Shown piece after piece: positions 7,448-26,900 of a DNA stretch of 35,000 bases. The notes under the pieces are model-generated. The model searched no databases. It worked only from the letters and a program-made list of their open reading frames with translations, and had not been told where the DNA came from. A program made the translations under genes and the position numbers. How positions within the stretch are numbered: the first letter of the stretch is position 1; every line of letters begins with the position of its first letter. Where the stretch lies: NCBI GenBank assembly GCA_004299085.1, contig SCQV01000122.1, positions 1-35,000 of the forward strand, read 5' to 3'. The stretch comes from Chitinophagaceae bacterium. Lineage in GTDB: Bacteria > Bacteroidota > Bacteroidia > Chitinophagales > Chitinophagaceae.

Positions 7448-7452
7448 TCCTT

Positions 7453-8214
7453 TCAAGTTTGTGGTACAACTATTTTATATTTGTCTATATAGATTCCTTT
7501 TTTGCCGGTAGTAAGACTGCGTTTACCTTCTCCTAAATTTATTTTTTTCAAGTTCAAATGTTTAAACCACTCGTGGCCTGCTTTTTCTGCCATATAAAGA
7601 AACAATCTTTTTACTTTTATTGAATTACAGGCTTCCAGTAACTGCTGGATCTTTTTTGGAGGAAGGTTATTTAATCCTTCCATCAGCTCATAACATTCTG
7701 ATATTTCTTGCTTGTGCGGAGTAAGATACAGGCATTCCATCATAGCCCGCGCCGCACCGGAAATTTTCAGGGAGAAACTTTTCATTTCTACCATTTCCAA
7801 TCCCAAATTTGCCGGCAAAAAAGAGGTAGCATGATAATCTATTCTGATGCCCCAGTTATATTTTTTAAACCAGGCGGGTAATACTTCATCTTCACTTCCG
7901 AAAAGCACCGCGTTTTGTGTATTTAGTTCTAAATAATGTGCTTTACCAAGTATGGATAAGGCTGTTCGTCCGCCGGGATGTATCTCGGAGTTGATTTGCG
8001 TTTGCAACGCATACAATGCTCCTTCATAGCTGATTTTTTCACCGCTGCGCTTCATCGCTCCGCTGCCTATGGATTCAAACCACCCGCTGCTTCTATACCG
8101 TCTCTGCAATTCGTGGCTGTATCCATTGTCCGCAAGCCATGAAGCCAGCAACACTGCATTGGATGGTATTAATTTTAAAAGATGGTTTATTTTTGTCTCT
8201 TTAGCTGTACTCAT
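7453..8214 (-). CDS. abiEi: AbiEi-type antitoxin / transcriptional regulator (module 1)
   Basis: AbiEi neutralises AbiEii and represses its own operon through an N-terminal winged helix. The 253-residue protein begins with a helical DNA-binding segment (about 8-45, including ASWLADNGYSHELQRRY). It continues into the family's C-terminal region with GGRTALSILGKAHYL (about 76-90), which matches AbiEi-like proteins. The ATG at 8214 is followed directly by the toxin gene with overlapping stop and start, so the two are translationally coupled. Upstream lie a TACATTTG promoter box and a perfect 11-bp inverted repeat, the expected autoregulatory layout. Confidence 0.85.
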   Translation of the reverse strand: MSTAKETKINHLLKLIPSNAVLLASWLADNGYSHELQRRYRSSGWFESIGSGAMKRSGEKISYEGALYALQTQINSEIHPGGRTALSILGKAHYLELNTQNAVLFGSEDEVLPAWFKKYNWGIRIDYHATSFLPANLGLEMVEMKSFSLKISGAARAMMECLYLTPHKQEISECYELMEGLNNLPPKKIQQLLEACNSIKVKRLFLYMAEKAGHEWFKHLNLKKINLGEGKRSLTTGKKGIYIDKYKIVVPQT

Positions 8215-8273: not shown

Positions 8274-8281
8274 CAAATGTA
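8274..8281 (-). promoter_or_regulatory. -7 box of the abiE-1 promoter
   Basis: Read on the minus strand the sequence is TACATTTG, a perfect match to the Bacteroidota -7 consensus TAnnTTTG, 60 bases ahead of the abiEi ATG. No good -33 TTTG is visible. Confidence 0.55.
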
Positions 8282-8289
8282 CTAAAAGT

Positions 8290-8550
8290 TCACCGATAAA
8301 ATAGAAAATAAACTACAACTGACTTCAAATTTGTGACAGGCACGCGCATTGCCCGGTGGTTATTATCCCTAAAATGCAGTGAGTATATTATCATTGCACG
8401 TGCGGGGTTTATATAAACAGAATAAGGAAAAAGAATGCGCCCGCCGTTCAATGCGCCTATCGGCGCAATCAACACCGGGCAAAAAGCAGGTGTGCAAATA
8501 GCGTCTTTCATTGCATTGCAGACGCCAATTGCACGGCATATTTGTTTCAT
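8290..8550 (-). CDS. Undescribed small protein, copy B
   Basis: An 86-codon leftward frame sharing its first 20 residues with copy A (6272-6469), followed by LIAPIGALNGGR and SVYINP with silent-only DNA differences in those blocks. The middle segment (PAFCPV versus HFIRPP) and the C-terminus differ. An in-frame TTG upstream at 8586 would add MRNIFLSKEKNT, but the ATG at 8550 is favoured because both copies have it. It ends just upstream of the abiE-1 promoter. No homologous function is known to me, and the frame may be incidental to a structured repeat. Confidence 0.4.
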   Translation of the reverse strand: MKQICRAIGVCNAMKDAICTPAFCPVLIAPIGALNGGRILFPYSVYINPARAMIIYSLHFRDNNHRAMRVPVTNLKSVVVYFLFYR

Positions 8551-8601
8551 TGTATTTTTTTCTTTGGAAAGAAAAATATTTCTCAACTACCCTAATTTTA
8601 T
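8404..8601. repeat. Direct repeat B, right of the abiE-1 module
   Basis: Second copy of the repeat at 6322-6519, same orientation. Its first hairpin (8439-8480) has an inner stem TGCGCC/GGCGCA where copy A has TGCACC/GGTGCA, a base-pair-preserving change. The outer stem is weaker here, with two mismatched positions. The second hairpin (8492-8534) is identical to copy A. Confidence 0.85.
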
Positions 8602-8637
8602 CAGCCTGTTTTACTCTTTCCTGATGATGCGGATTAC

Positions 8638-8985
8638 TTACTTATTGATTAATGCTGCATTTTGTAAATAAGTATTCCCTGATTTCTTTTTACCGATACT
8701 TATTTTATACATGTTGCTTGTAGGGCAGCACGTAAAATCAATCTCCGATTTAGGCAGCTTGTACTGACCTGTTTTTTTATCGCAATACACCGTAAGCTGT
8801 ACCTTTTCTTTGGCGGGCAGCAGGGTAAAGTAGCAACCGACTGCCATTATTTTTTTAGCCCATATTTTAAAATCCAGAATAGCTTCATATTCGCCTTCCT
8901 GTATCCGGTTTGCATCGTAAGGATAAAGGCGCGGCTCATAACCTTTCGCCAGCGCCGCACCAAAAGATAAGACATTTCTTTCCAT
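8638..8985 (-). CDS. Hypothetical protein (115 aa)
   Basis: Not recognised. A soluble-looking 115-residue protein with a long leftward frame and an ATG start, beginning MERNVLSFGAAL. The middle holds beta-rich segments (VQLTVYCDKKTGQYKL) and a CC pair in DFTCCPTS, and the C-terminus is basic (ISIGKKKSG). It lies 7 nt downstream of the 93-residue gene at 8993-9274, so they form a two-gene operon that diverges from the toprim and mob genes. The position suggests an accessory maintenance or transfer role, but nothing in the sequence proves it. Confidence 0.6.
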   Translation of the reverse strand: MERNVLSFGAALAKGYEPRLYPYDANRIQEGEYEAILDFKIWAKKIMAVGCYFTLLPAKEKVQLTVYCDKKTGQYKLPKSEIDFTCCPTSNMYKISIGKKKSGNTYLQNAALINK

Positions 8986-8992
8986 TGCTCTG

Positions 8993-9274
8993 TTACTTTG
9001 CCTGTAAGATATTCAGCCGGTTATTCATTTCCGTAAGACCTGCTTTTTCAAGCAGCATTTTGCCGACGTCCGATAATTGAGCGGACATTTCTTCATCCAT
9101 CATCCGCAACATTCCTTCCGCCTGTTCTTTCGTAGTAATACCTTGCGTTATAGCACGGTTAAGAAATAAAACAGTTTTGCGGGATAACTGTAAAGAGAGT
9201 TTGATGGTTGCTTCCATACCCGGAGCGGTCAACAGCGTTTCATAGAGTACGCCTACTTCTTTCTGAGATAACAT
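8993..9274 (-). CDS. Hypothetical helical protein (93 aa)
   Basis: Not recognised. An all-helical 93-residue protein (MLSQKEVGVLYETLL at the start, DEEMSAQLSDVGKMLLEKAG later), without Cys or membrane segments. It is the first gene of a leftward pair and shares a 167-bp divergent control region with the toprim gene. That region carries a 7-bp inverted repeat (9352-9374). On the minus strand a TAACTTTA box (9315-9322) could serve it as a -7 element. Small size and position next to a dyad make a regulator conceivable, but no DNA-binding motif is visible. Confidence 0.6.
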   Translation of the reverse strand: MLSQKEVGVLYETLLTAPGMEATIKLSLQLSRKTVLFLNRAITQGITTKEQAEGMLRMMDEEMSAQLSDVGKMLLEKAGLTEMNNRLNILQAK

Positions 9275-10517: not shown

Positions 10518-10907
10518 ATGGAAAGACAAAAAAATAATAAAACTCGCTGGATAAACATCCGCTTACACCCGGAACAGTATGATATCATCTATCAAAAATT
10601 TAAGGCTACTACCTGTCGCAAGTTAAGCGAATACGCCCGGCGTGTGCTGCTTGATAAAGCCGTTACGGTCTATACGCGCAACCAGTCCCTTGATGACTTT
10701 ATGGCAGAGATGATCCGGCTTCGCAACGAGCTTTCTGCTATCGGTAACAACTACAATCAAGTCGTAAAAAGGCTACATACTTTAACGGATTTTCAGAGCA
10801 TCCAACAGTGGCTTTTACTCAACGAAAAATCCAAGCAAATCCTGTTGCAAAAAGTAGATGAAATCAAATTAAAAATCAATTCAATTTCCGACAAATGGTT
10901 AGTGTAA
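10518..10907 (+). CDS. Ribbon-helix-helix mobilization (relaxosome) protein
   Basis: The partner that positions the relaxase at oriT. The N-terminal half has the RHH layout: a basic beta strand KTRWINIRLHPEQ, then helix YDIIYQKFKATTCRKLSEYARRVLL. It is followed by the MobC/MobA-family phrase LRNELSAIGNNYNQVVK (about 73-89). The ATG at 10518 is preferred over the GTG one codon earlier. It overlaps the relaxase gene by 13 bp, the usual arrangement. About 129 residues is normal for the family. Confidence 0.88.
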   Translation: MERQKNNKTRWINIRLHPEQYDIIYQKFKATTCRKLSEYARRVLLDKAVTVYTRNQSLDDFMAEMIRLRNELSAIGNNYNQVVKRLHTLTDFQSIQQWLLLNEKSKQILLQKVDEIKLKINSISDKWLV

Positions 10908-12148
10908 TCAAGAGCAGTGCAAGCCTCAGAAATGTACTGTATTACAACGAAAATAAATTAAAACAAAAAGTAGCCGAATTAATCCATTCCAGCGGCTTTA
11001 CAAAAGATGCAGAGCGGCTCTCTTTTAAAGACAAGCTCAAGACTTTTGAAAAACGCATGGAGCTGAATCAGCGCACCCGATTAAAGACCGTGCATATATC
11101 CCTCAATTTCCACCCGGACGAGAAGCTAAACAAAGAACAATTAAAAGATATAGCGGATGCTTATATGCAGAAGATAGGCTTCGGCGACCAGCCGTATCTG
11201 GTCTATCAGCATTTTGATGCCGGCCATCCGCATATCCATCTGGTAACGACCAACATTAAAAATGATGGCGCCCGTATTAAAATGCAGAATATAGGACGTA
11301 ACCAATCCACTAAAGCCCGGTTGGAAATAGAAAAGGAATTTTGGTTGAAACCTGCCACCCAAGCCGACCTGAAAAGAGTGTATGAATTAAAGCCGGTCAA
11401 TGCTACAAAAGTACAGTACGGTCGGACGGAAACGAAAAGGGCAATTACCAATGTATTGGATTATGTGCTGCCCAAATATAAGTATGCTTCGCTGCCGGAG
11501 TTAAATGCCGTATTAAGGCAATACAATGTGCTGGCTGACCGGGGCGGTAAAACATCCAGGATATTTAAGAACGGCGGGCTGGTGTACCGGGTACTTAATG
11601 AGCGTGGCGAAAAGGTGGGTGTTCCTGTTAAAGCGAGCGATATTTATAATCAACCGACACTGGCCACGCTGCAACAAAAGTTCGATGAAAATAAAGTGGA
11701 AAAGCAAAATCTTAAGGTTCGCCAACGCTTGCGCAATGCCATTGATATTTTCTTGACCGGAAGCACCCAACCTTCCTTATTGCATCTCATAAATTCATTA
11801 AAGCAAAAAAATATTGAGGTTGTCTTGCGCCAAAATGAGGCGAGCAGGATATACGGCATTACATACGTGGACAAGGAAACGAAATTTGTTTTTAACGGCA
11901 GCGAGCTGGGCAAGCAATATGCGGCTTCCGGTCTGCTTCAACGGCTGGATAATACCATATCCGTCAACGATAAACCAAAACAAGCACAGCAGGTTAAGGA
12001 AACACAAGAAAATGACTTGCCCGTTTCCACTCAAACTCTGCAAAAAGTTTTGGACATTTTGTTTAAAGAAGAATATACAGGCACATTATCGAATGAATTG
12101 CAAAATGAATTGAAACGCCGTAGGCGGAAGCGCTTGCGTCTTGAATGA
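10895..12148 (+). CDS. Relaxase / mobilization nuclease (MobP/MobB type)
   Basis: Nicks oriT and pilots the strand into the recipient. The relaxase metal site HFDAGHPHIH lies at residues 106-115 (HxDxxHPHxH), preceded by TVHISLNFHPDE. Candidate catalytic tyrosines are in the N-terminal VLYYNENK (about 14-21). The C-terminal half is basic and coiled-coil prone, ending RRRRKRLRLE, and may carry accessory DNA-binding or coupling functions. Its 417 residues match Bacteroidota MobB proteins. It overlaps the RHH gene and precedes the coupling-protein gene by 39 bp. Confidence 0.92.
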   Translation: MVSVIKSSASLRNVLYYNENKLKQKVAELIHSSGFTKDAERLSFKDKLKTFEKRMELNQRTRLKTVHISLNFHPDEKLNKEQLKDIADAYMQKIGFGDQPYLVYQHFDAGHPHIHLVTTNIKNDGARIKMQNIGRNQSTKARLEIEKEFWLKPATQADLKRVYELKPVNATKVQYGRTETKRAITNVLDYVLPKYKYASLPELNAVLRQYNVLADRGGKTSRIFKNGGLVYRVLNERGEKVGVPVKASDIYNQPTLATLQQKFDENKVEKQNLKVRQRLRNAIDIFLTGSTQPSLLHLINSLKQKNIEVVLRQNEASRIYGITYVDKETKFVFNGSELGKQYAASGLLQRLDNTISVNDKPKQAQQVKETQENDLPVSTQTLQKVLDILFKEEYTGTLSNELQNELKRRRRKRLRLE

Positions 12149-12187
12149 TTTTAATAAATTATTTTTTAATCGCTTAAATGAGGCAGT

Positions 12188-14170
12188 ATGAAAACGGGAG
12201 AGAACGAACAGGGATTAAAACAGGTGACGGACTTAACAAGAGGCATTGCTATTGTAGTACTCATCATTCATTGTTACTATGAATGTTATGCGGCTTTTAA
12301 AGCATGGGGGTTGGTTTCACCAATATCAGACCGATTGTTGGGCAATATTATCCGGATGCAATTCTTTTCAGGCTTTATGAAAACTAAATTGATTGCACTC
12401 GGCTTTCTATTATTGTCATTGCCTGGTGTAAAAGGCAGGAAGAACGAAAAAGCCCGGTTTAAAACAGCACTTGCTTACTATCTTACAGGCATTGTATTGT
12501 ACTTATTGAGCGGTGTTATCCTGTATTATTTCAAAGGTGATGCAAAAGCCGTTGCATCGGCGTATATCGGTATTACTGCATCGGGTTTTATGCTTATTAT
12601 TAGAGGCGGTGGATTGCTTTCAAAAATTATTAAATGGAAACTGAGCAAGGATGTATTCAATAAGGATAATGAAACCTTTCCACAGGAAGAACGGTTCCTG
12701 CCAAGTACTTTTTCTCTCAATCTGCCGGCAAGATATAAACTGAACAACAAGGTACGTGATAGCTGGATTAATTTTGTTAATGCACGAAGGTCTATTTTGC
12801 TGATGGGCAGCCAGGGTTCGGGTAAAACTTATTTTGTAATCAATCATTTTATCCGGCAACTGATGAGCAAGGGAATGGCGCTATTTATATTCGATCAAAA
12901 GTTCCCTGAATTGACCAATCTTACTTATAACCTCTACCTGAAATATAAAAACAAATACCCACCCGGCACGAAATTCTGCTGTCTGAATTTTAAAAATCTG
13001 TCGTTAAGCGGTCGTTGTAATCCCATTCATCCCGGCACCTTGTTTACGCTCACCAGCGCCATTGACGCAGGCCGTACCTTACTGTTAAGCATGAACAAAA
13101 CCTGGGCAAGCCGGCAGGGCGAATTTTTTGTGGAATCCCCGATCAATCTGCTGGCCGCCGTCATCTGGTTTTTAAAGAAATATAATGAAGGCATGTACTG
13201 CACCTTGCCCCATGCCATCGAACTGATACAACTTCCTTATGAAGAACTGTTTACCATACTGCGTACGGAAACGGAGATAGCCACCTTGATTAATCCCTTT
13301 GTCCAATTCTTTATGGATCAGGAAATGGAAACTTTGAGTAACCAGATGGCTTCCGTTAAAATCCCGCTGGGTCGCCTGTCCGGCCCGGATCTTTATTATA
13401 TTTTATCCGGTAATGATTTTAACCTTGATATGAATAACCCCGAACATCCGGTTATCCTTTGTTTGGGCAATAACCCCCAGGCACAGGATGCTCTCGCCCC
13501 TGTTATGTCATTGTATATTGACCGGCTGAATATCCTGATTAACCAACAGGGAAAATATCGCCTTGCCCAGGTGTTGGACGAATTTGCGAGCATCCGCTCC
13601 ATACAGGTGCTTAAAACAATCAGTACCGGTAGAAGCAACGACATTATTACCGTGATTTCTTTACAGGATTACAGCCAGCTCAAGCTGGTCTATTCCCGCG
13701 AGGAAGCGGAAGTTATCTTTAATATTTGCGGTAACCTGATTTGCGGACAGGTAAGCGGTGAGAGCGCTAAGATGGTAAGCGAACGCTTTGCCAAAACTTT
13801 CCAACAACGGGAAAGCATTTCCATCAATAGCAGCGACACATCCATTTCCCATAGTAAACACTTAGATGTGGCGATACCGCCCTCGACAATATCGAGCTTA
13901 TCCAGTGGTGAGTTTGTTGGTATTGTTTCTGATGATCCTGACCAAATCATCGAGCAGAAGATGTTCCATGCGTTCATTATAAATGACCATACGGCCCTTG
14001 CTAAAGAAAAGGTAGCCTTTAAGCCGCTACCCGTTGTGAATCACCTTACCGAAAAAGAGGTTTTGGATAATTACCTTTTGATTAAACAGGATGTGCAGGA
14101 TATTAAAAACCAGATAATGGAAGATATACTGAATGATCCGGAGAGAGAGAATTTGGTGGTAAGAAAGTAA
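12188..14170 (+). CDS. Type IV coupling protein (VirD4/TraG, Bacteroidota MobC type)
   Basis: An inner-membrane hexameric ATPase that hands the relaxase-DNA complex to the secretion channel. The first ~150 residues have four hydrophobic segments (about 18-36, 66-80, 93-115, 121-142). Walker A GSQGSGKT is at 207-214 and Walker B with DEF in QVLDEFASI at about 460-468. The FIFDQKFPEL and SLQDYSQLKLVY motifs fit the TraD/TraG nucleotide domain. No secretion channel genes are in the window, so a helper ICE or another part of this element must provide them. It is the last rightward gene of the transfer core. Confidence 0.9.
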   Translation: MKTGENEQGLKQVTDLTRGIAIVVLIIHCYYECYAAFKAWGLVSPISDRLLGNIIRMQFFSGFMKTKLIALGFLLLSLPGVKGRKNEKARFKTALAYYLTGIVLYLLSGVILYYFKGDAKAVASAYIGITASGFMLIIRGGGLLSKIIKWKLSKDVFNKDNETFPQEERFLPSTFSLNLPARYKLNNKVRDSWINFVNARRSILLMGSQGSGKTYFVINHFIRQLMSKGMALFIFDQKFPELTNLTYNLYLKYKNKYPPGTKFCCLNFKNLSLSGRCNPIHPGTLFTLTSAIDAGRTLLLSMNKTWASRQGEFFVESPINLLAAVIWFLKKYNEGMYCTLPHAIELIQLPYEELFTILRTETEIATLINPFVQFFMDQEMETLSNQMASVKIPLGRLSGPDLYYILSGNDFNLDMNNPEHPVILCLGNNPQAQDALAPVMSLYIDRLNILINQQGKYRLAQVLDEFASIRSIQVLKTISTGRSNDIITVISLQDYSQLKLVYSREEAEVIFNICGNLICGQVSGESAKMVSERFAKTFQQRESISINSSDTSISHSKHLDVAIPPSTISSLSSGEFVGIVSDDPDQIIEQKMFHAFIINDHTALAKEKVAFKPLPVVNHLTEKEVLDNYLLIKQDVQDIKNQIMEDILNDPERENLVVRK

Positions 14171-14231: not shown

Positions 14232-15458
14232 TCATAGCTTTTTTATTTGTTCAATTGTAAACCTCAGCCTTTCTATTAGATTGTCATAAGTAATTATATC
14301 CACCACATTTTTATACTTACGTTTCACCACTTCAAAATCCCTTTTTTGGTCAATTGATAAATTGTTTTCTCTCCCCATAATAATCACTCCGCTTGGGTTA
14401 GCTATCTTAATATCAAATCCCATTGGCAATTGCATTTGATATTTTTTGCTTAAAAACTGTTCACCCTCAAAACTCCAACGATTTAGGTAATAGATGTATT
14501 TTTCAATTTGCATAACCGTACCTGAAAGCTCTCTAAGAGGGATATAATTTTCTCGATAAACGCCTTTAGTCATAATAGCGTTCTCAAATGGCTTCTTTAT
14601 TTCAATAACATCAACATATCCATTAGAATCAACTAAAAGAAAATCAAGTTGCTTTTCTTTTATTCCGTTTGCCAATTTTGTCTGTATTGGGACTGACCTA
14701 AAAGCAAAAATATATTTAGGATAGAGCAATAGAATAATTTGTAAAATTTCTTCTTGCCATTGATGCTCACTGTACTGATTCTCATCCTTTAGCATTTCCT
14801 GTAACTTTTCAAGAATTGTCTGATATTTTACAAGTTCTATATCCTGAAAAGTTTTTGTCAAATTTGTACCTTGTTTAGACAGTTTTGTGTTCAGATACTT
14901 CTGGTATGGGTTTTCAGCATCTTTGACATTGTCTAAATAATTCCTTAGTACAGATGCAATTCGAGCTTCGACATATTTCCGTCTTTCATAAGATGTAGGG
15001 AAATATTTTAGTAGTTTTTCAAACTCTTCGACAGGTATAGCGCTTGGATGGTTACCACCTATATAAAAATCATTTTGGGATATGCTTTTGATAAGACTAA
15101 AGACCGAAACATTTGAATCAGCAACAAAAAAATTTGTGCTAAACGCAACATCTTTATGTATGAATATATCGAAGGCATCAATGAGTATTCCTTTTTTGAT
15201 TTTATAATAATCCCCTATTAGTTTTGCAAATAAAAAATAAGTAACCTGTTCTAAATCGGGGTCATCGAAATTATCTATTTCTGGTTTTTCGTCAAATTCA
15301 TCATCGCTTAGAACATCGTCTTCTTCAAAATAAAATGCTCTTTTAAGTTTTACGAATCCTTTTGTCTTAATGACTTCTCTTACCCAATCAGAAGAGGTTG
15401 CAAATTCTGCAATATATCGTAAAACCAATCTGCTATCCTTTACAAAAAAATCAATCAT
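14232..15458 (-). CDS. sduA: Shedu anti-phage nuclease (SduA, DUF4263)
   Basis: Shedu proteins are PD-(D/E)XK nucleases that protect against phage. The C-terminal half carries the family core: EHQWQEEIL (231-239), D272 in KQLDFLLVD, and the E-x-K of VIEIKKP (E286, K288). LRELSGTVMQIEKYIYYLN follows, then NPSGVIIMGRE. The N-terminal ~200 residues are a family-specific region with a strongly acidic patch (about 45-70). It starts 14 bp downstream of gajB on the same strand, so it very probably shares the Gabija transcript. It is convergent with the coupling-protein gene. Confidence 0.87.
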   Translation of the reverse strand: MIDFFVKDSRLVLRYIAEFATSSDWVREVIKTKGFVKLKRAFYFEEDDVLSDDEFDEKPEIDNFDDPDLEQVTYFLFAKLIGDYYKIKKGILIDAFDIFIHKDVAFSTNFFVADSNVSVFSLIKSISQNDFYIGGNHPSAIPVEEFEKLLKYFPTSYERRKYVEARIASVLRNYLDNVKDAENPYQKYLNTKLSKQGTNLTKTFQDIELVKYQTILEKLQEMLKDENQYSEHQWQEEILQIILLLYPKYIFAFRSVPIQTKLANGIKEKQLDFLLVDSNGYVDVIEIKKPFENAIMTKGVYRENYIPLRELSGTVMQIEKYIYYLNRWSFEGEQFLSKKYQMQLPMGFDIKIANPSGVIIMGRENNLSIDQKRDFEVVKRKYKNVVDIITYDNLIERLRFTIEQIKKL

Positions 15459-15472
15459 ATTTCGTTATCTTT

Positions 15473-17539
15473 TCAAGGTATATTTATTATCTCCCATTCC
15501 TCTCTATTAATACTTTGAAGATATTTATCAAATCTGTCTTTATGAATTGCAATACAAAGCAAATCAGTTGGTCGTGAAAAACCAACATAAGCCATTTTTG
15601 CGGATTGTTTAACTCTGTCACCGACGGTTGATTGTATTTGTGTTCCTAAAAATTGGTCTTTTAGTCGTTGCGATTCGTAAGATTTCGTATTTGCACCGTT
15701 TCCGTCTTTCTGAAAGTACGATTCCAAATACAATGTCGCACAATGTGTTTGTCCTTTTACTGCGTGAACGCTTGTAATTTCAATTTCAAGTCCATCTTCT
15801 TTGTAATGGTTGGTCGGTACTATAATCTCGGCATCTTCGGCAGGAATTTCGGCATTGTCAGTATTGACAAAATTTGAACTTGCGGAAATAGTTTTTTCAA
15901 ATAACTTAAGCAAAGTCGGAACGTATGCTTTTATTCCGTCCCAAACTCCATTTGCTTTTTCTTGGATTATTCCGATTGACCAATTGTAAAGGTTCAAATT
16001 AAGTTCGTCATATTTTTGAATGTCTTTTTCGTGAATAAAGTCAATTAGTTTTTTCTTTGTGTAAGGTCTGTCGTCTGCTGTATTGATGTTTTCTAAACGC
16101 AAAATTTTTAGAAAAGCGTTTAAAATGTTTTTCCGCAGAGGTTCTAATGTTTGCTTTTTCTCGTAATACAGCAAATAACTTTTTAAGTTGTCGTAGTCTT
16201 GTTTGGGTTTTCCTTTTTCTTTCTTGAAATCTTTGTGATAATCTTCTAAACGTAGTTTTGAAGCATCATTCCGACTTGTATTATCATCTTTCCATTCCGT
16301 ATTCCAACAAACAACTTTAATATCTTTAAATTCTTTTTTTGACGTCAACCTACCATTCGCTTTATACTCTTTTACAACTTTAGCAAAATAAGGAATGACG
16401 TTTGTAATAGTTGAATTTTCGAAAACTAAAATATGCGGTTTTATGTCGCATTCATTTTTCCCAACAATATCAAAGTTATTATCATTGTATAAAGCAAATC
16501 TTTTTACAACATCTGCGATTGGTTTGCTTAGCCTTTGGCTACCCGCTAAATTTAAAACGCTATCAGGATTTGTTCTTAATTGCCAAACTTCGTTTGTTTT
16601 TACACTGTTTGAAGAATGATAAATTGCTTGATTTCTGTCGCCAATTCGTTGAATTTTTGAAATGCTATTTCCGTCATCGTAAAAAATCTTTTCCAACAAA
16701 TTGTATTGATGTGTGTCCATATCTTGCATTTCATCCACAAAAACAAAAGGAAAACGTTTCTGTAAAAGTTCTTTTATTTGAGGAATCTTAAGAAGATAGC
16801 ATTCTCCAAAATGATATGCGTAATCGTATGAAATAATTCCTTTCTTCAGAACTTCAACGATTATCGTTTTAAGCCCAATGTATCTTTTGTTCGTTTGGGT
16901 TTTCAATAAAACATCATTGTCTCTGTTTTTTATTTCATCAGTAATAAAGTCATAATACAAGCCACGAACTTCTTTCTCTATATATTTAGTAACAAGTTGC
17001 TTTGTTAGATTTTTGTCTTTGTTCGCGTCTTTTTCAGCTCTTTTGATATGTCTTTTGTAAAATAATTTTGTTGGTTCGTCATAATCTTTTTTCCAAGCAA
17101 TTATATTGAACAGCCTTACTAATTCTTCTTCGTATCTGTCTTTATCAATCCAATTTAATTTTCTTTTGAAAACAAGATTGTAGATTGGAATAGCCAAAAA
17201 CTCATCAACAAAACTTTGTATTGTGCCAATAAAATTGGGATAAGAAAATAATCTCGGACAATGCTTTTGAATTTTTTCTTTTATCTCGTCAATGGCTGCG
17301 TTGGTATGCGACAAAACCAAAATACCCGAACCGTCAGCAAAAGGAAGTTTGCGTTCTAAAATAACCAACTTTGCAAGTAACGCTGTTGTTTTTCCGCTTC
17401 CGGGAACGGCTTGTAAATCTATGGTGTTGAAGTTGCGAATAAAATCTACACGTTCAGGGTCAAACGTTTTGCCCGCAGGTAAAAGCAACTGTTCGGCATA
17501 GGGAATATCATCATCTGTTATGTCAATTACCTGTGGCAT
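15473..17539 (-). CDS. gajB: Gabija protein GajB, UvrD/Rep-like helicase
   Basis: GajB is the superfamily 1 helicase-like ATPase that partners with the GajA nuclease. Walker A is AVPGSGKTT (44-52) and Walker B FVFVDEMQDMD (267-277). Motif III is IGDRNQAIY (299-307), and SQRLSKPIAD (about 334-343) follows. The late helicase motifs are ITSVHAVKGQTH (588-599) and MAYVGFSRPTDL (649-660). At 688 residues it is on the long side for GajB (typically nearer 500), with insertions in the 1B/2B-like regions. Its start overlaps the end of gajA by 17 bp. The AT-rich DNA differs from the mob genes. Confidence 0.88.
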   Translation of the reverse strand: MPQVIDITDDDIPYAEQLLLPAGKTFDPERVDFIRNFNTIDLQAVPGSGKTTALLAKLVILERKLPFADGSGILVLSHTNAAIDEIKEKIQKHCPRLFSYPNFIGTIQSFVDEFLAIPIYNLVFKRKLNWIDKDRYEEELVRLFNIIAWKKDYDEPTKLFYKRHIKRAEKDANKDKNLTKQLVTKYIEKEVRGLYYDFITDEIKNRDNDVLLKTQTNKRYIGLKTIIVEVLKKGIISYDYAYHFGECYLLKIPQIKELLQKRFPFVFVDEMQDMDTHQYNLLEKIFYDDGNSISKIQRIGDRNQAIYHSSNSVKTNEVWQLRTNPDSVLNLAGSQRLSKPIADVVKRFALYNDNNFDIVGKNECDIKPHILVFENSTITNVIPYFAKVVKEYKANGRLTSKKEFKDIKVVCWNTEWKDDNTSRNDASKLRLEDYHKDFKKEKGKPKQDYDNLKSYLLYYEKKQTLEPLRKNILNAFLKILRLENINTADDRPYTKKKLIDFIHEKDIQKYDELNLNLYNWSIGIIQEKANGVWDGIKAYVPTLLKLFEKTISASSNFVNTDNAEIPAEDAEIIVPTNHYKEDGLEIEITSVHAVKGQTHCATLYLESYFQKDGNGANTKSYESQRLKDQFLGTQIQSTVGDRVKQSAKMAYVGFSRPTDLLCIAIHKDRFDKYLQSINREEWEIINIP

Positions 17540-19292
17540 ATTTAATGGCTTTTACAAGGTAATTAACCGTGTCGTTGGTATCATCAATATTTATAATTGT
17601 GCGAACTTCTTTACTTAAATCTTCATCAATGGCATTTGCAATGTGATAAGCAATGTTCGTTTTTTTCAAAGTTTTGTTTATCAACTTTATTGCAAGAGCT
17701 TTTTCAAAATCTGTGTTCCAATCTGTATGTGTATGAAATGTTTTTGTCGCATTTTGCAACAGCGTTGTCAAACTTGTTGATTTGAATAGAGAATATTCCA
17801 AAGTCCAATTGGGTGCAGGAAAGTATTTTACATTTTCTTTCGATTGCTCGTTTATCTTTTTAATTCTTTCCTCTGTTTTTCCCTTAACTATTTCGGTATC
17901 TTGTTTTACAAAATCATCTCCGCTTTTTTCATATTCTCTAATGTCGGAATCAATAATTACAGCAACAGGAATGGTCATATTGGGTTCTTTTTCTCGCAAG
18001 TAAATATTTGCATAATGGTCAAAACCTGTGTGTCCGATATTCACAATAGAAACGCCTTTTTCGGTTAAGTTTATTCCGATTGCTTTTGCAATGCTTGGTA
18101 AAAGAATTTCTTCTGCCCAACCTTCCACTATAATAACGCCTTTAGCAAAAAACAAATTGGCTTTTGTGGTGTCCAAAAACTTTTCTAAAAATCTGTAATT
18201 ATCTTTTTTTAACTTGGTGTAAGTATCGCCCATAGGAAAAGCGTTTCCGTTGTTGCAAATTATCAAGTTCCTCAATTTGAGTTTGGAAGCCAAATTCGGG
18301 CTGTGCGTTGTAAGAATAAGTTGAATGTCTTTTTGTTTTTGAAGGGCTTCAATCACTTGCATTTGTGCTTGCGGGTGCAAGTGTGCTTCCAATTCTTCCA
18401 CCAAACCCAAACGCAAGCCAGTCCAATCTGATTTGGTTAAATGAAGCAATTCAGCAGCCATGAACAAACGGTTCAAGGTTCCTAGCCCCGGATTGGGTTC
18501 ATTTTTCAGAAACAGCGTTAGTTTTTCAAGAATGCTTTTGATGTCGTTCCCTGATGCTTCAAATTCGGTTTCATAATCTTTTCCATAAAAATTTTTAATG
18601 TAATTGTCAATTTTATCTTTTATCTGTTTGCCTTCTGTGTTCTTGGGCTGACCTGCATCATCAACTCCTTTGAAATAATTTTCCAATGCAGTTTTTAAAC
18701 CCGAAAATATATTTACCAAGCTGTTGTCTTTCTCTTTTCCTTTAAATGCTTCATCGCCCAAAAGAATTTGAGACAATCGTGAATTGCGTTTTGCAATCAA
18801 TTCATTTTCCGCATCACGCAAAGGTTTTAAGTAGGTTGCTTTAAAATATTCTTTAGTTTCTGCTGAAAGCATATATCCTTCTTCATCAACCCCCGCTTTT
18901 ACATCGGTCGGAATTATTTTATCTGCTTGGAGTTTTACATCGTAATTCAGTTTTAAAAATGGTTTTGCTTCTTCGCCTTTTCCATTCCAGCCTAACCATT
19001 CTGTAAAGTTTTTTGCTTCTTCGGGTTTTAAATCTTCAAAGGTTAGTTCAATGCGAAAACGACTTGAGTTGTTGTAAAAATCTTTTTCATCAACTCTGAT
19101 ATAATCGTAGCTGTGTGTTTTTAAAACTAATTTTATTGCATCAATAATTGCAGTTTTGCCCGAATCGTTTTCGCCAATAATTAGATTCAAACCTTTGGTT
19201 AGGTTTAAATCCAAATGCGGTTTTGCAAGGTCTATTTCTCCCGCTGTACCGAATTTTCTAAAATTCCAAAGTTTGATGTTTGATAGGTACAT
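17523..19292 (-). CDS. gajA: Gabija protein GajA, OLD-family ATPase-TOPRIM nuclease
   Basis: GajA senses nucleotide depletion and nicks DNA in the Gabija system. It opens MYLSNIKLWNFRKFG. Walker A GENDSGKT is at 40-47, LVEELEAHLHP (Walker B with D-loop) at 297-307, and the switch histidine in LTTHSPN at 327-333. The C-terminal TOPRIM has E390 in VEGWAEE and D448/D450 in IIDSDI. The 589 residues match full-length GajA. Immediately upstream a truncated paralogous N-terminus (19232-19741) runs 61 bp into this gene in another frame. Together with gajB this is an intact two-gene Gabija system. Confidence 0.9.
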   Translation of the reverse strand: MYLSNIKLWNFRKFGTAGEIDLAKPHLDLNLTKGLNLIIGENDSGKTAIIDAIKLVLKTHSYDYIRVDEKDFYNNSSRFRIELTFEDLKPEEAKNFTEWLGWNGKGEEAKPFLKLNYDVKLQADKIIPTDVKAGVDEEGYMLSAETKEYFKATYLKPLRDAENELIAKRNSRLSQILLGDEAFKGKEKDNSLVNIFSGLKTALENYFKGVDDAGQPKNTEGKQIKDKIDNYIKNFYGKDYETEFEASGNDIKSILEKLTLFLKNEPNPGLGTLNRLFMAAELLHLTKSDWTGLRLGLVEELEAHLHPQAQMQVIEALQKQKDIQLILTTHSPNLASKLKLRNLIICNNGNAFPMGDTYTKLKKDNYRFLEKFLDTTKANLFFAKGVIIVEGWAEEILLPSIAKAIGINLTEKGVSIVNIGHTGFDHYANIYLREKEPNMTIPVAVIIDSDIREYEKSGDDFVKQDTEIVKGKTEERIKKINEQSKENVKYFPAPNWTLEYSLFKSTSLTTLLQNATKTFHTHTDWNTDFEKALAIKLINKTLKKTNIAYHIANAIDEDLSKEVRTIINIDDTNDTVNYLVKAIKYATGN

Positions 19293-19850: not shown

Positions 19851-20564
19851 TTAACCAACAATATCTCCTACGAAATACTCATCTTGTAATTTCAGTTCCA
19901 TATTTTGTATAAATTCCTTTTGTGAAGGAACACTCCCGACACTAAACTTCATATGCTTCCGATAACAATTATGCATAACCTCTATATCCAGCTTGCTCTT
20001 AGTAAATGCCTGATACAAATCATATAAATCACGTCCCTTACGACGCTGGAATAAAGCACGGATTTTTGTCCCAAGTAATTCTTCCACCGTATATGTAGTT
20101 AGAGAACACGAGCCTTCAAACCAATTTGATTGTACCCTAAAATCTTTCTTTTCCCAGCCCGACTCTGCAAAATGCTCCCGGCAATTTATTTCAATCTTTA
20201 AACGCAAGGGCACAATCGGAGCTATTTCAGATTCAAACCTGAATTTCATCGTAGCCATCATATCGCCAACCTCTACTCTTGCTTTTCCTAAGAAATCAAG
20301 CACTATTCTAAGCCTGTCCAATACTTCTCCAATCGGTTCTGCTTTCATTTGAACCAAATCTATATCTTCACTATAACGGGATTGAGGATGAATATACAGT
20401 TTATGCAATGCAGTACCTCCACGAAATGCTAAATGCTTGGCCAGATAATCGTCATTAAATATCTGCACTAATGCACGACAAATTATCAGGTCTTGTTCTA
20501 CCTGTTCATTTGTTTGCCATGCAACCGTATTACTCCATTCGATTATGTCGCATTGTGGTATCAT
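19851..20564 (-). pseudogene. abiEii: AbiEii-type toxin (module 2) with premature TAA
   Basis: A nucleotidyltransferase toxin of another AbiEii subfamily than module 1: LAFRGGTALHKLYIHPQSRYSEDIDLVQM (about residues 40-68) holds the GG(T/S) and DxD elements. The C-terminal half has RRKGRDLYDLY, typical of DUF1814. Translation ends at residue 237 with a TAA at 19851-19853. Reading on in frame gives IRPDEVYDHNVAYKLVKKN and a stop at 19773, exactly how the family's last helix looks. I infer a nonsense mutation that removes about 25 residues. The shortened toxin may or may not be active. ATGA overlap couples it to the antitoxin. Confidence 0.78.
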
Positions 20565-21397
20565 CCGTCAATTTCAATTTCTGTGTTCACTATTACTTTC
20601 CATCGTTCATCTGCCGGAAAGCCTTTTTTTGCTGCTGCTGTTTTTAAAGGAATACGGAAAAAATCAAGTCCAGCCTTTTGACTTACTTCATAAAGATGTT
20701 TGCCAATATCTTGCTTTAATATTACATCCAACAAGAACCCCAATCGTTGAATAGCTGTAACAGGCATTGTTTGTAAAAAAGATTCTGTAATCTGTTCCGG
20801 CTTTATGGCTTCTGTTAGTTCATTTAAAACAGTAGCAACCCTGTCAAGCCCACCAACCCGCTTATCAAACTGTACCAAATCTATTGCCGTTAAAGCAGGA
20901 TTAGAAATATTGATAAAACCCGTTTCCGTTTTTCTTTTTTCCAAATACGGTTCAGGGATTTCCTTTTTACTGATGTAATTTATTTTGATACCTTTTTTAC
21001 CAGTTGGTCGCAGTACGGGAAAATTAGTAACTACAAAATATTCCTGCGGTTGCTGATGTGCTGCACCGTGAAATGCAGCAGCATTTAATAAACTGACGTA
21101 GTAACGTCTTTTCAAAAATTTCATTAGGCCATCAATGAATAACGATGGGGGTAGAACTCCTCTGGAAGCATATTGCGGGGTAATGATTAAATAATATCCT
21201 TTATGTATAGATATTATCTTTCCTTTCCCTGCAAGCCTCGTTAATTTCAATTTCATGGCAGCTTCGGTATCATTGGCAAAGGTATTCCTTACCTCATTGA
21301 GGCTAAATGAATGCCTTCCCTTTGACGCGAGGCTTTCTACCCATTGTCCTATCGATATATTGGCATCCAAAGAGTAAGTTTTTGCGAAAGGTATCAA
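20561..21397 (-). CDS. abiEi: AbiEi-type antitoxin / regulator (module 2)
   Basis: The N-terminal winged helix is clear: ISIGQWVESLASKGRHSFSL then AAMKLKLTRLAGKGKIISIHKGYYLI (to about residue 71). It is followed by the PPSLFIDGLMKFLKRRYYVSLLNAAAFHGAA phrase of AbiEi proteins and LDRVATVLNELTE (about 174-186). There is no ATG before residue 48 and a stop lies directly upstream, so the start must be a TTG, most simply the one at 21397. That TTG sits inside a 19-bp inverted repeat (21379-21419), the likely autoregulatory site. It overlaps its toxin gene by 4 bp and diverges from rloA. Confidence 0.85.
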   Translation of the reverse strand: MIPFAKTYSLDANISIGQWVESLASKGRHSFSLNEVRNTFANDTEAAMKLKLTRLAGKGKIISIHKGYYLIITPQYASRGVLPPSLFIDGLMKFLKRRYYVSLLNAAAFHGAAHQQPQEYFVVTNFPVLRPTGKKGIKINYISKKEIPEPYLEKRKTETGFINISNPALTAIDLVQFDKRVGGLDRVATVLNELTEAIKPEQITESFLQTMPVTAIQRLGFLLDVILKQDIGKHLYEVSQKAGLDFFRIPLKTAAAKKGFPADERWKVIVNTEIEIDG

Positions 21398-21419: not shown

Positions 21420-21707
21420 AACGCTTCTCAAACTATGATATGGACCAAGGTTAATACAAGCGATTACTATAACCCCTAATAATGTGGTTCTTTCTGCTGA
21501 CAGCTTTTGATATCAAAAAATTACGCAAAAAACTCTGTCTATCATAGTTGTTGGAAATTATTATCAGCTTAGTATGAATAAATATCGGGGCGAATTAGGA
21601 TGCCTTTTGTCACTAATAGTAATAGGATAACAAAAAATGAGAAAATTTCTCACTTTATCCATAAAAATAGTATCTTTGTCTTGAATTTTATAAAAAGAGG
21701 AACAACT
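21398..21707. other. Divergent control region between abiE-2 and rloAB
   Basis: About 310 non-coding bases. They hold the right arm of the abiE-2 operator, a weak minus-strand -7-like ATAGTTTG (21429-21436), the rloA dyad (21638-21652) and the rloA -7 box (21671-21678). An in-frame ATG at 21600 would extend RloA by 36 unlikely residues across the promoter, so it is not used. Confidence 0.55.
21638..21678 (+). promoter_or_regulatory. rloAB promoter with an overlapping dyad
   Basis: TATCTTTG (21671-21678) is a perfect TAnnTTTG -7 box 29 bases ahead of the rloA ATG. Where a -33 element would lie there is instead a perfect dyad TGAGAAA-A-TTTCTCA (21638-21652). A repressor could sit on the promoter there. 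Confidence 0.6.
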
Positions 21708-23006
21708 ATGCTATTGGAATTTACTACTGGTAATTTTCTTTCGTTTAAAGAAAAGAATACGCTGAGCATGTACGCCACAGCCGTAAAAGAATTTTCCGAT
21801 ACCAATGTGGTCGAAATAGAACATTACCGGATTTTAAAAGGCGCCGTTATTTATGGAGCCAACTCAAGCGGCAAGAGTAATCTTATCCGGTCAATGTCCA
21901 CCATGTGTAGGTTGGTATTGCAATCATTTGAACAATCATCTACTGCAGAATTGAACATTACTCCATTTCTACTAAATACTGGTAGTGAACAAAAACCATC
22001 CTTCTTTGAAGTGCTGTTTTTAATAAATGGTGCCAGGTATCGTTACGGTTTTGAAGTAGATAATTTTTCGATTAAATCGGAATGGTTATTTGAAGCAAAG
22101 AAACAGACAGAAAAACCTCTATTTGTAAGAGAAAATGATGGTATTGAGGTAATGAAGTCTTTTCCCGAAGGAAAAGACTTGGAAGAAAAAACAAGAAATA
22201 ACGCTTTATTTCTTGCCGTTGTTGACCAGTTCAATGGAAAAACAGCCAAAGCAATCATGAACTGGTTTGATAATTTTGTTACCATTTCCGGGTTAAGTCA
22301 TGAACGTTATACCGGTGTTACTTTTTCCTTATTGGAAAATGAAGAAACCAAACCTGCCTTACAGGAATTTTTCAATAACGCTGATCTCGGCTTTGACTCA
22401 GTAAAGTTGAATAAGAAAGAGTTTGACGCAGCACGGCTGCCGAAAGATATGCCCGAATCTATCATGCAGGAAATCAGCACCAAACTGCAAGGGCAAACAA
22501 TGGTAGATGCTATCACTTTACACAAAAAATATAACGATAAAAATAAAATCGTGGGTACTATTGAGTTTAATATGGATAGTCAGGAATCTGCCGGTACGAA
22601 TAAAGTGTTTAATATGTCGGGGCCTGTTTTTGACGTATTGCATGATGGTGGTTTTTTGGTGGTAGATGAACTGGACGCAAGCCTGCACCCATTACTTACA
22701 CTGGCTATTACCAAGTTGTTCAACTCAAAAGAACATAATCCTAAAAATGCCCAATTAATTTTTGCTACACACGATACCAATCTGTTGTCTTATGGTAACT
22801 ATCGCAGAGACCAGATTTATTTTGTAGAAAAGGATAAGTATGGTGCTTCTGATTTGTATTCATTAGTGGAGTACAAAGAAGAGGGCGCAACCAAAGCAGT
22901 GCGCAAAGACCGCTCTTTTGAGAAAGACTATATTCAGGGCAGATATGGGGCTATTCCGTTTATTGGTAATCTCTCAAATATTATTCAGGGATGGCAAGAA
23001 AAGTAA
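21708..23006 (+). CDS. rloA: RloA-like AAA (AAA_21) ATPase, first subunit of an RloAB/AbiL-type system
   Basis: An OLD-like ATPase lacking its own nuclease domain. It begins MLLEFTTGNFLSFKEKNTL, the usual start of COG1106 ATPases; GAGGA just upstream and a promoter box at 21671 support the ATG at 21708. Walker A is GANSSGKS (50-57), Walker B with D-loop LVVDELDASLHP (317-328), and the switch histidine FATHDTN (352-358). The C-terminal DRSFEKDYIQGRYGAIPFIGN is the family signature. The 432 residues are normal. It overlaps rloB by 16 bp. Related pairs (AbiLi-AbiLii, RloA-RloB) are abortive-infection or defence modules. Confidence 0.88.
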   Translation: MLLEFTTGNFLSFKEKNTLSMYATAVKEFSDTNVVEIEHYRILKGAVIYGANSSGKSNLIRSMSTMCRLVLQSFEQSSTAELNITPFLLNTGSEQKPSFFEVLFLINGARYRYGFEVDNFSIKSEWLFEAKKQTEKPLFVRENDGIEVMKSFPEGKDLEEKTRNNALFLAVVDQFNGKTAKAIMNWFDNFVTISGLSHERYTGVTFSLLENEETKPALQEFFNNADLGFDSVKLNKKEFDAARLPKDMPESIMQEISTKLQGQTMVDAITLHKKYNDKNKIVGTIEFNMDSQESAGTNKVFNMSGPVFDVLHDGGFLVVDELDASLHPLLTLAITKLFNSKEHNPKNAQLIFATHDTNLLSYGNYRRDQIYFVEKDKYGASDLYSLVEYKEEGATKAVRKDRSFEKDYIQGRYGAIPFIGNLSNIIQGWQEK

Positions 23007-23683
23007 AGATTCCCAATGAACGGTTGAAGCGATATGCAAGAGAGGAGCATAAACGAAAGCAGGACATACGGGCTAAGCGTGTGTATTATCTTATTGTTTG
23101 CGAAGGTGAAGAAACCGAACCCAACTATTTTGAAGGATTGAAACAAGATTTGCCCAAAGGTGTGCTTACGGCTTATCAGATAGACGTTGAAGGTACTGGG
23201 CGCAACACACAATCTTTGGTTGACGAAGCTATAAGATTAAAAACTGTTTACGAGAAAGATACCGGAAGACCAATAGACAGGCTTTGGGTAGTGTTTGACA
23301 GGGATAGTTTTGCAGCCAATGATTTCAATAATGCCATTCTTCGTTGTGAAAGTACACAGCCTGTTATTGGTTGTGCATGGAGCAATGAAGCATTTGAATT
23401 ATGGTATCTATTGCACTTTCATTATTATCAGAATGCAATGAACCGGCAACAATATCAGGATTTAATTGATCAAAATTTGCGACCTTTTTTGGGAGATAGT
23501 TATCATTATGAAAAGAACAGTACAATCATGTATGATTTACTGAAAGAGTATGGAAGCATTGACGATGCTATCCGAAATGCTAAACGGCTTTCTGAAACTT
23601 ATGATGAAAGGCAGGATTATGCGGAACATAATCCGTGTACAATGGTTTGGAGGTTGGTGGAGGGATTAATGGAATTGAAATAA
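22991..23683 (+). CDS. rloB: RloB-like TOPRIM-fold protein
   Basis: RloB (AbiLii-like) is the presumed nuclease partner of the RloA ATPase, the two together resembling a split OLD nuclease. The TOPRIM-like acidic residues are E38/E40 in VCEGEETEPNYF and D103/D105 in VVFDRDSF. The middle phrase GCAWSNEAFELWYLLHFHYY (about 127-146) and the C-terminal HNPCTMVWRLVEGL are family features. The N-terminus is very basic. At 230 residues it is full length. A decayed second rloB 3' end lies at 27214-27342 just before qatA. Confidence 0.87.
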   Translation: MARKVKIPNERLKRYAREEHKRKQDIRAKRVYYLIVCEGEETEPNYFEGLKQDLPKGVLTAYQIDVEGTGRNTQSLVDEAIRLKTVYEKDTGRPIDRLWVVFDRDSFAANDFNNAILRCESTQPVIGCAWSNEAFELWYLLHFHYYQNAMNRQQYQDLIDQNLRPFLGDSYHYEKNSTIMYDLLKEYGSIDDAIRNAKRLSETYDERQDYAEHNPCTMVWRLVEGLMELK

Positions 23684-23918: not shown

Positions 23919-26900
23919 ATGAACAGCAATTCTAGCAATCACGATATTAAATATCCAAGATTCATAAATAATGCCCCCTGCGGACTGGATTTATTTGAAG
24001 GCAAGGCACAGGATAAAATTGCAAACAATATTTCTTCTGGAATACTTGACCATCCCGAGTTAAAAATAATCGGCATTGATGGTGGATGGGGTGCTGGAAA
24101 ATCAAACTTGGTAGAGTTAGTTAAAAAGAAATTAGAAGAAGAATGTCACTTTTTTATTTACGATGCCTGGGGGCATCAGGAAGATTTGCAAAGACGGGCA
24201 TTTCTTGAAGAATTAACTGAATACCTTACTATAGAAAAATTTGTTTCTGATGAATGGAAGGCTAAACTTAAAGACCTTTTAGCCAAAAAAAGGGAAACAG
24301 AGAGTAAAAAAGTACCCAAGCTTAGCATTGGAATTATAATAACGGGGTTACTGATATTACTTAGTCCAATACTGAAATTTGTTTCAGATAATGTTCATAG
24401 CATATTATGGAAAACACTGATTTTATTAACTCCTTTTTTTATAATACTAATTCTTATTGCCATATTTTACCGGAAAGAAAAAAGTCGCACTTTCCTTCAA
24501 CGGACAAAAAAAGCATTTTCAAAACTGTTTTTAGAGTACCAAAATAAAATTGAAGAAGAAACTAAATATGAAACGATTTCAGAAGATGAACCTTCAGTAA
24601 GAAAGTTTAGAGAATGGATGAGCGAAATATCCACAGATTTAAAAGTAAAACAAAAGAAATTAGTTGTCGTTTTTGACAACATGGATAGGTTGCCACAAAA
24701 AAAAGTACAAGAGTTATGGTCTTCTATTCATGTGTTCTTTGCAGAACATAATTATGAAAATATAAAAGTTATTCTTCCTTTTGATAGAAGTCATATTCAA
24801 AACGCTTTTAAAACAGAAGATGCAAATAATGGGCAAAATTTTGGTGATGATTTTATAAATAAAACTTTCAATGTAGTCTATAGAGTGTCTCCTCCTATAT
24901 TATCCGATTGGAAAGGTTATTTTAAATTTCAATGGAAGAATGCCTTTGGTGACAACACAGTCGAAAATGAAAATTACAATAATGTAGTACAAATATTCGA
25001 CCTTCTGAGTACAGCTATAACACCTCGAAAAATTATTGCTTTTATAAATGAAATTGTTGCAATAAAACAACTTGCTGTTGAAACGATTCCCGATAAGTAC
25101 ATTTCTCTATTTGTCTTTGGCAAAAATATAATTACGAAGAGCCCATTTGATGAAATTATCAATCCCACTTATTTAAAAGGCTTAGAATTTTTATACAAAA
25201 GTGATGAAGATTTACCTAAATACATTGCAGCTCTATTTTATCAAGTAGAACCAGAACATGCTATTCAAATCGTTTTCACTAACAGGTTAAAAGAAGTCCT
25301 AAATAATAACCAATCTGAGGAAGTTTTGAAAATAAGTGAAATCCCTGAGTTCATAGATATTCTTGAAAACTCTATTGCGGAGGTAACAAATTTTGAAAAT
25401 GCAATTTTGGCTATTAATAAGTTACCCGATGAAAAATTAGGCAACGAATTTCAAAAACAGATGATTTGGGAATGCTTGTATAAAAAAGTAGTTCCGAAAA
25501 ATGATTCAAAATTGTACGATTATCAAATAGCATTATTGGCCAACATAAAAGACAAGAAATCGTATTTACAAACTGTATTGATTGGATTGACGTCAGGGGA
25601 AAATTTTAAAGCTCTTGATTATTATAGGAATATTGATGAGCTTAATGGAAGATTTAGTAAGGAGTTTAATGTCTTTGAGTATTTAAAAAGCAAAGAGACA
25701 AATGTTGCTGATTTTATAGACTTTGTAAAAAATGCCAGAGAAAAATATGGTAATTATAAAATTACGTGCAAAGAAAAAGAACTAAATGATTATTTAATAG
25801 CGTTTGATATAAATAAATTATCAGAAATTGATTTTATTCCTTATTTACAAAATGAATATGATTTTGGAGAATACAAAAAGAAGTTGGAGGAACTTATTTC
25901 TGCGAATGCACCAAATAATAATAAGCTGATAATATCAGGTCTTTTTGATAAATACAAGGAAGTTTCAAAAGATAAACCACTTAAAGCCAAACTTGAAGAC
26001 CCTCAAATTTACACTTTTTGGCAAGCATCAAATCCAGACGAAGATTTTTATTATGATTTACTTTCAATGCGTATAGCCAAATTGACAAACTTTAATGCAA
26101 ACTATGTCACTTATTTTAATGATGCGTTACAAAAAACCGATAGTAATATCATTAAAAAGGTTTGTGAAAGAATTGAGTATTATATAAACTATGGAGATAT
26201 TTTATTGGCTCTTAAATCTTTTAATCAATACCCTTTATTTAAAGCAATTGCCAATGAACTTACGATAAATTCTTATGGAACCTCAAAAGCCGAGTTAGTA
26301 ACGATATTGTCTTCATTTGATGAAATTTGCAACAAAGGAGATATTGACCCAATCACACTTATTAAAAAGTTTGGCGGAGCATCAACAGAAAAAATCACTT
26401 CGCAAAATATCTCAAAAACAGTATCAATTTTCTTTGTCAAAAATGCTTTAGAAACTGATTGCAAGTTAAGCAAGCATTGCATTGACTGTCTAAAGGAATA
26501 TCTTGATTCATTAGATGTAAATAAATGGATAGAGATTTTTAAAGATTTCAATAGTTATGGATTTAAAGTATCACAAATTCTTCCCTCATATAAATTCACA
26601 CAAAATGCTTTCGATGCAATAAAAGATGTATTAAAACAAATTGCTGAAAAGAAAATTGCAATCCCCGACAAAACATTGTGGAATGATTTAATTCAAAAAA
26701 TAGAAGGTCAAGAAAGGAACTGGCAGGGAACATTTAATGGCATACGAGACTTATTCTGTCGGGAGGACAATACGAATCCAGAACTTTTTAAGTTTTTTTC
26801 GGACTGGCTGTTTAAATACTCAGTTTTAAGCGAAAATTCATCATCATTACGAACGATATTCAAATCAACAGTTATTAACGATAATGAATGTTTACAAACT

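Follow-up and report, generated by a model that had tools for sequence, protein, structure and literature searches.

The DNA analysed here is a stretch of 35,000 nucleotides from a Chitinophagaceae bacterium (contig SCQV01000122.1; "the window"). By the coordinates of their open reading frames, three genes follow each other head to tail on its minus strand in the order gajA-gajB-sduA. The features to be discussed are the following:

10895–14170, plus strand: MobA-like relaxase and TraG/VirD4-like coupling protein (TraG by Pfam, MobA by homology and sequence reading)
14232–15458, minus strand: sduA, Shedu nuclease of the E. coli SduA (EcSduA; 8PS4) type, 408 aa
14274–14774, minus strand: C-terminal PD-(D/E)XK nuclease domain of SduA (SduA_C), by Pfam and alignment
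14883–15458, minus strand: N-terminal DNA-end-binding (clamp) domain of SduA, residues 1–192, homologous to 8PS6
15459–15472, minus strand: spacer of 14 bp between gajB stop and sduA start
15473–17539, minus strand: gajB, UvrD-like SF1 helicase, 688 aa
16829–17185, minus strand: hypervariable, exchangeable segment of GajB, residues ~119–237, between motif Ia and motif II, in the place of helicase subdomain 1B
17523–19292, minus strand: gajA, class 2 OLD protein with ABC-type ATPase and Toprim nuclease, 589 aa
19232–19741, minus strand: 5′ part of another gajA, truncated after ~145 codons, with its junction right at the gajA start codon

Reading frames, strand and coordinates of the three genes are exactly those of the first-pass annotation of this DNA, and both the 17-bp overlap of gajA and gajB and the 14-bp gap behind gajB came out the same when re-measured; the genes are not "fused", as was stated there, since they are three separate genes and encode no single fused protein. 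In profile searches with PADLOC, GajA matched PDLC00099 (E=6e-230), GajB PDLC00146 (E=6e-262) and SduA PDLC00388 (E=2e-144), and the Pfam domains AAA_15, OLD-like_TOPRIM, UvrD-helicase and SduA_C each scored above their curated cut-off. The first two genes have what characterizes Gabija: GajA combines an ATPase (Walker A GENDSGKT, Walker B region LGLVEELEAHLHP) with a Toprim domain that has kept its catalytic glutamate (E390) and DxD (D448/D450), GajB is a UvrD-like SF1 helicase with Walker A (PGSGKT) and DExQD (DEMQD) motifs, and the genes adjoin in one probable operon, with an overlap that is kept in relatives. Both proteins, their gene order and the catalytic motifs are common to the window and to the Gabija systems of B. 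cereus VD045 and P. aeruginosa PA14, to which the window adds sduA as a third gene. All three genes are intact, and dN/dS values of ~0.05–0.2 for each of them, in relatives compared with the window, indicate that all three are under purifying selection. Judged from their spacing, they probably form one transcription unit, in line with the earlier suggestion that the two systems are expressed together; a separate sduA promoter cannot fit inside the 14-bp gap. A promoter scan was uninformative: no exact Bacteroidota-type promoter was found on the minus strand of the three-gene region, and sigma-70-like sites occurred there at chance level.

SduA is a Shedu protein of the EcSduA type. Its SduA_C/DUF4263 PD-(D/E)XK domain has conserved catalytic residues (E231, D272, D283 and E286 are invariant, K288 nearly so), and sequence comparison aligned residues 3–406 with EcSduA (8PS4; E=7e-76), a far better match than that to the Shedu of B. 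cereus. The N-terminal clamp domain of 8PS6 was recovered both by sequence (residues 3–192, E=6e-20) and by Foldseek (E=2e-12), whose best matches to SduA were 8PS5, 8PS4 and 8PS6. The AF2 model of SduA has good local confidence, a pTM of 0.51 and a TM-score of 0.49 to 8PS4, so that the placement of the domains is unsure and the homology rests on the sequence and Foldseek E-values. The window protein thus has full-length homology, an N-terminal DNA-end-binding domain and the PD-(D/E)XK core in common with EcSduA (PDB 8PS4/8PS5/8PS6). As a review describes it (see PMC12904381 and PMC12407980 for the DNA-end biology of both systems), the N-terminal clamp of EcSduA binds DNA ends and the protein nicks at a fixed distance from them; by homology, the window SduA has a DNA-end sensor domain of its own. 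EcSduA-type genes of P2-like prophages stand alone, ~290 bp from the next gene, whereas the window sduA follows gajA and gajB as the third gene of a probable Gabija operon. The first residues encoded by one such gene, at L071 (loci in other genomes are designated L and a number), coincide with those of 8PS4, and this gene lies alone in a P2-like prophage. A scan of viral contigs with SduA returned mostly solo prophage copies, and the same scan with GajB gave no match.

GajB had been considered longer than usual. This is so in comparison with the B. cereus protein (494 aa), but not with the two best-matching GajB models of PADLOC (663 and 647 positions) or the GajB proteins of close relatives (652–704 aa); abnormal length was therefore rejected, 688 aa being normal for its PADLOC class. 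In place of the "room for an interaction domain" proposed earlier, this long subfamily has a hypervariable, exchangeable segment at the position of subdomain 1B, which distinguishes it from the Gabija of VD045 and PA14. For L009 and L010 nucleotide identity drops from 99% to 50% in the segment and rises to ~90% after it, and protein identity is 26% there versus 82–96% around it; between loci generally, the segment is mostly 17–39% identical with GajB flanks 60–96% identical. Segment types cut across the rest of GajB (the window with L006 and L051; L007/L008 with L050 and L030; L027 with L016 and L058), and in approximately unbiased (AU) tests the segment data reject every other tree. The variation is independent of sduA because L050, L051 and L058 lack that gene. 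As the AF2 model of GajB was too poor to use (mean pLDDT 62, pTM 0.43), the assignment to subdomain 1B rests on motif positions. The 1B domain of B. cereus GajAB makes GajA–GajB and GajB–GajB contacts, according to PMC10781630. From these patterns we infer recombinational exchange under diversifying selection; perhaps the segment serves recognition or escape from phage inhibitors.

The arrangement is not unique to the window. A scan of ~85,000 species genomes by exact peptide patterns from the window SduA, a procedure which makes taxon sampling uneven, returned 32 loci. A survey for conserved gene order, as had been proposed, found homologous gajA-gajB directly ahead of sduA, in the same order and on the same strand, at L006–L010, L016, L017, L027 and L030, and a different Gabija subtype in this position at L012 and L013. 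The trio is therefore present in 12 loci, the window and 11 further ones from Bacteroidota in at least three independent lineages, and the gap between gajB and sduA is −1 to 14 bp in all 12. Chryseobacterium culicis is one of the carriers that can be cultured. Of the SduA loci examined, 52 besides the window, 16 are preceded on the same strand by a gene that ends no more than 20 bp away: gajB in 11, hsdR in three, a BREX operon gene in one and a doubtful small ORF in one; the gap upstream of solo sduA copies is usually larger. The cassette is rare, as none of 394 other genomes of the same class has SduA at E<=1e-40. In the open literature found by search, a gajAB-sduA operon is not described; the key Shedu papers of Gu et al. 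2025 and Loeff et al. 2025 lie outside that scope and may mention Gabija-linked Shedu genes.

In the SduA tree the proteins fall into three types: type I comprises the window, L006–L010 and L061, type II L016, L017, L027 and L030 (support 100/98), and type III L012, L013 and the solo L054. Type I is joined to window-type gajAB, type II to gajAB of Flavobacteriia and type III to a divergent Gabija subtype (GajA identity 29%, GajB under the detection limit that was applied, other PADLOC models), which indicates that the trio was assembled at least three times. Partners have also been exchanged: L027 combines a GajA of the window clade (support 100/100) with a type II SduA, that is, its SduA was swapped, and the dS values between L006 and L008 (0.29 for sduA, 1.06 for gajA, 1.51 for gajB) imply that sduA was exchanged on its own. 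In AU tests on ten trio loci, the GajB flanks served as the GajB tree. With the GajA data the GajB-flank topology was accepted (p=0.33) and that of SduA rejected (p ~1e-49). The SduA data rejected the topologies of GajA (p=0.007) and of the GajB flanks (p=0.04) alike. As the GajA topology was also rejected by the GajB flanks (p=0.002), the match of GajA and GajB is closer, not perfect. At two loci sduA is interrupted behind open gajAB, by an in-frame stop in L007 (at about 8658–8660) and by a frameshift in L027 (at about 8396), which may be decay or sequencing error; broken copies behind intact gajAB fit dispensability of sduA, and could be due to assembly error.

The cassette is mobile. Similarity of the window DNA to L006–L010 extends from 19291, at the gajA start, to 14238–14245, at the sduA stop, with unrelated flanks, and for L007–L010 it is broken only at the hypervariable segment of GajB. 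The surroundings are mobilization genes in the window, conjugation genes in L006 and L008, and other islands in L009 and L010; such sharp edges in unrelated contexts imply that the trio moves as a unit. In the window it adjoins the mobilization genes, end to end with traG, and on its other side the truncated gajA, which overlaps the complete one by 61 bp, is of a different subtype (PDLC00083, positions 1–158 of 639). This junction suggests that the cassette inserted into a resident Gabija or took its place. Other defence genes make the window a dense island: two AbiE systems, AbiL/RloAB, QatABCD and a PDC-S06 ATPase. The PDC-S06-like ATPase (20–1756, plus strand) has weak similarity to PrrC; the AbiEi/AbiEii toxin-antitoxin pairs (6533–8214 and 19851–21397, both minus strand) are separate and of different subtypes; AbiLi and AbiLii (RloA/RloB-like; 21600–23683, plus strand) overlap by 16 bp; a KAP-family P-loop NTPase of 1057 aa without assigned system (23919–27092, plus strand; Pfam) lies between AbiL and Qat; and QatA-QatB-QatC-QatD (27349–32100, plus strand) were called by PADLOC, QatB weakly.

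Each part of the trio is also found apart from the other. gajAB occurs without sduA at L050 (GajA 78%, GajB 63% identical), L051, L057 and L058, and in the unbiased samples each of the four further genomes whose GajB is at least 46% identical lacks SduA at that locus. Conversely, sduA is present without gajAB at L011, L014 and L054 (56–64% identity; L054 and L011 at 62–64%) and at many other loci. Co-occurrence and co-evolution as expected of an obligate three-gene system are thus contradicted by these loci and by the AU tests. SduA has other neighbours as well. At L019, L021 and L022 it lies 11 bp behind an HsdR gene of type I restriction, and in L022 gajA-gajB also heads the same gene row as hsdR-sduA. 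The SduA of L061 (1–3494), 74% identical to that of the window, has an LmuB-like (DUF3732) gene 224 bp upstream; the 14-bp leader of its gene is nearly identical to the window's. On a Methylomonas plasmid (L045, 3911–6227) sduA is located inside a BREX operon (pglX - PDDEXK gene - sduA - pglZ) and overlaps both neighbours. Shedu-type nucleases within BREX operons are mentioned in PMC12839542, citing Gu et al. 2025; as portrayed there, SduA is an accessory nuclease inside another system's operon, as in L045, with BREX as the host system where the window has Gabija. The locus L058, with window-clade gajAB and no sduA, has a single-gene defence nuclease, PD-T4-3 (GIY-YIG; 8276–9004), 126 bp after gajB, possibly an alternative add-on nuclease.

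On balance we favour the view that in this mobile cassette of three genes a Gabija of the standard two-protein kind and a self-sufficient Shedu of the EcSduA type are co-expressed and act autonomously as layered defences, sduA being a swappable add-on and not a fixed part of the trio. The mechanisms on which this proposal draws come from distant homologues in other phyla. P. aeruginosa Gabija is reported (PMC12904381, PMC12407980) to act at genome ends and to block circularization. By analogy, GajAB would detect phage DNA ends or end-processing intermediates and block circularization or degrade the DNA; SduA, independently of GajAB, would clamp DNA ends by its own N-terminal domain and nick at a fixed distance. 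Linear DNA ends are the target of both known systems, so that protection would be layered at one vulnerable stage with different triggers and inhibitor sensitivities, and a phage escaping one system would meet the other. Gain or loss of sduA behind gajB would resemble the addition or removal of an accessory nuclease, unlike a change of a core subunit. Direct precedent for caution is the three-gene cluster GrwAB-VcSduA of V. cholerae VSP-II WASA, which was dissected into two independent systems; in the account given in PMC12137116, a Shedu gene likewise lies directly behind a two-gene nuclease system, although the N-terminus of VcSduA is a GHKL ATPase and the two systems seldom occur together elsewhere.

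It is possible, if rather doubtful, that the two systems cooperate functionally without a fixed complex: GajAB would make or expose ends for SduA, or nicks by SduA would feed GajB, and protection would be more than additive. The at least three independent juxtapositions, with constant gene order and spacing of −1 to 14 bp, speak for this, as does work at DNA ends by both systems (PMC12904381); the repeated assembly at near-zero spacing, with gajB the partner in 11 of the 16 tightly linked SduA loci, may reflect real cooperation beyond co-expression. Members of this SduA family are also placed tightly after HsdR, inside BREX and, more loosely, after LmuB, which leaves cooperation some probability. 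However, both SduA and gajAB are maintained at loci where the other is absent, and the four of four SduA-free genomes of the unbiased samples weigh against it. A broader and slightly more tentative version of the idea is that EcSduA-type Shedu is a general plug-in end-nuclease, taken up repeatedly behind defence machines that translocate DNA (Gabija on three or more occasions, type I restriction HsdR, BREX and perhaps Lamassu LmuB), where the translocase would feed it ends and the combination would be synergistic.

Very unlikely, by comparison, is a complex that needs all three components, with GajAB for sensing and SduA as effector; the suggestion of the first-pass annotation that Shedu might use the Gabija ATPase as a sensor finds no support here. 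Tight spacing, probable translational proximity and constant gene order would suit such a complex; however, SduA carries a DNA-end sensor domain of its own, its tree conflicts with those of GajA and GajB while GajA accepts the GajB-flank tree, and it was swapped in L027 and exchanged alone between L006 and L008. Together with the solo copies of each part, this led us to reject an obligate three-protein system. Least likely of all is coincidental packing without functional consequence, which would suit a dense defence island such as the window and was dismissed, as the same trio arose several times and is seen again in unrelated contexts, where homology ends sharply at the gajA start and the sduA stop.

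Gabija and Shedu usually count as two systems, and recent work connects both of them with DNA ends. An operon that joins them in nature, was assembled at least three times and can swap its Shedu partner offers a ready-made experiment on whether defences directed at one and the same stage cooperate or have simply additive effects. For annotation tools it is also a warning that what is scored as "two systems" may form a single mobile cassette.
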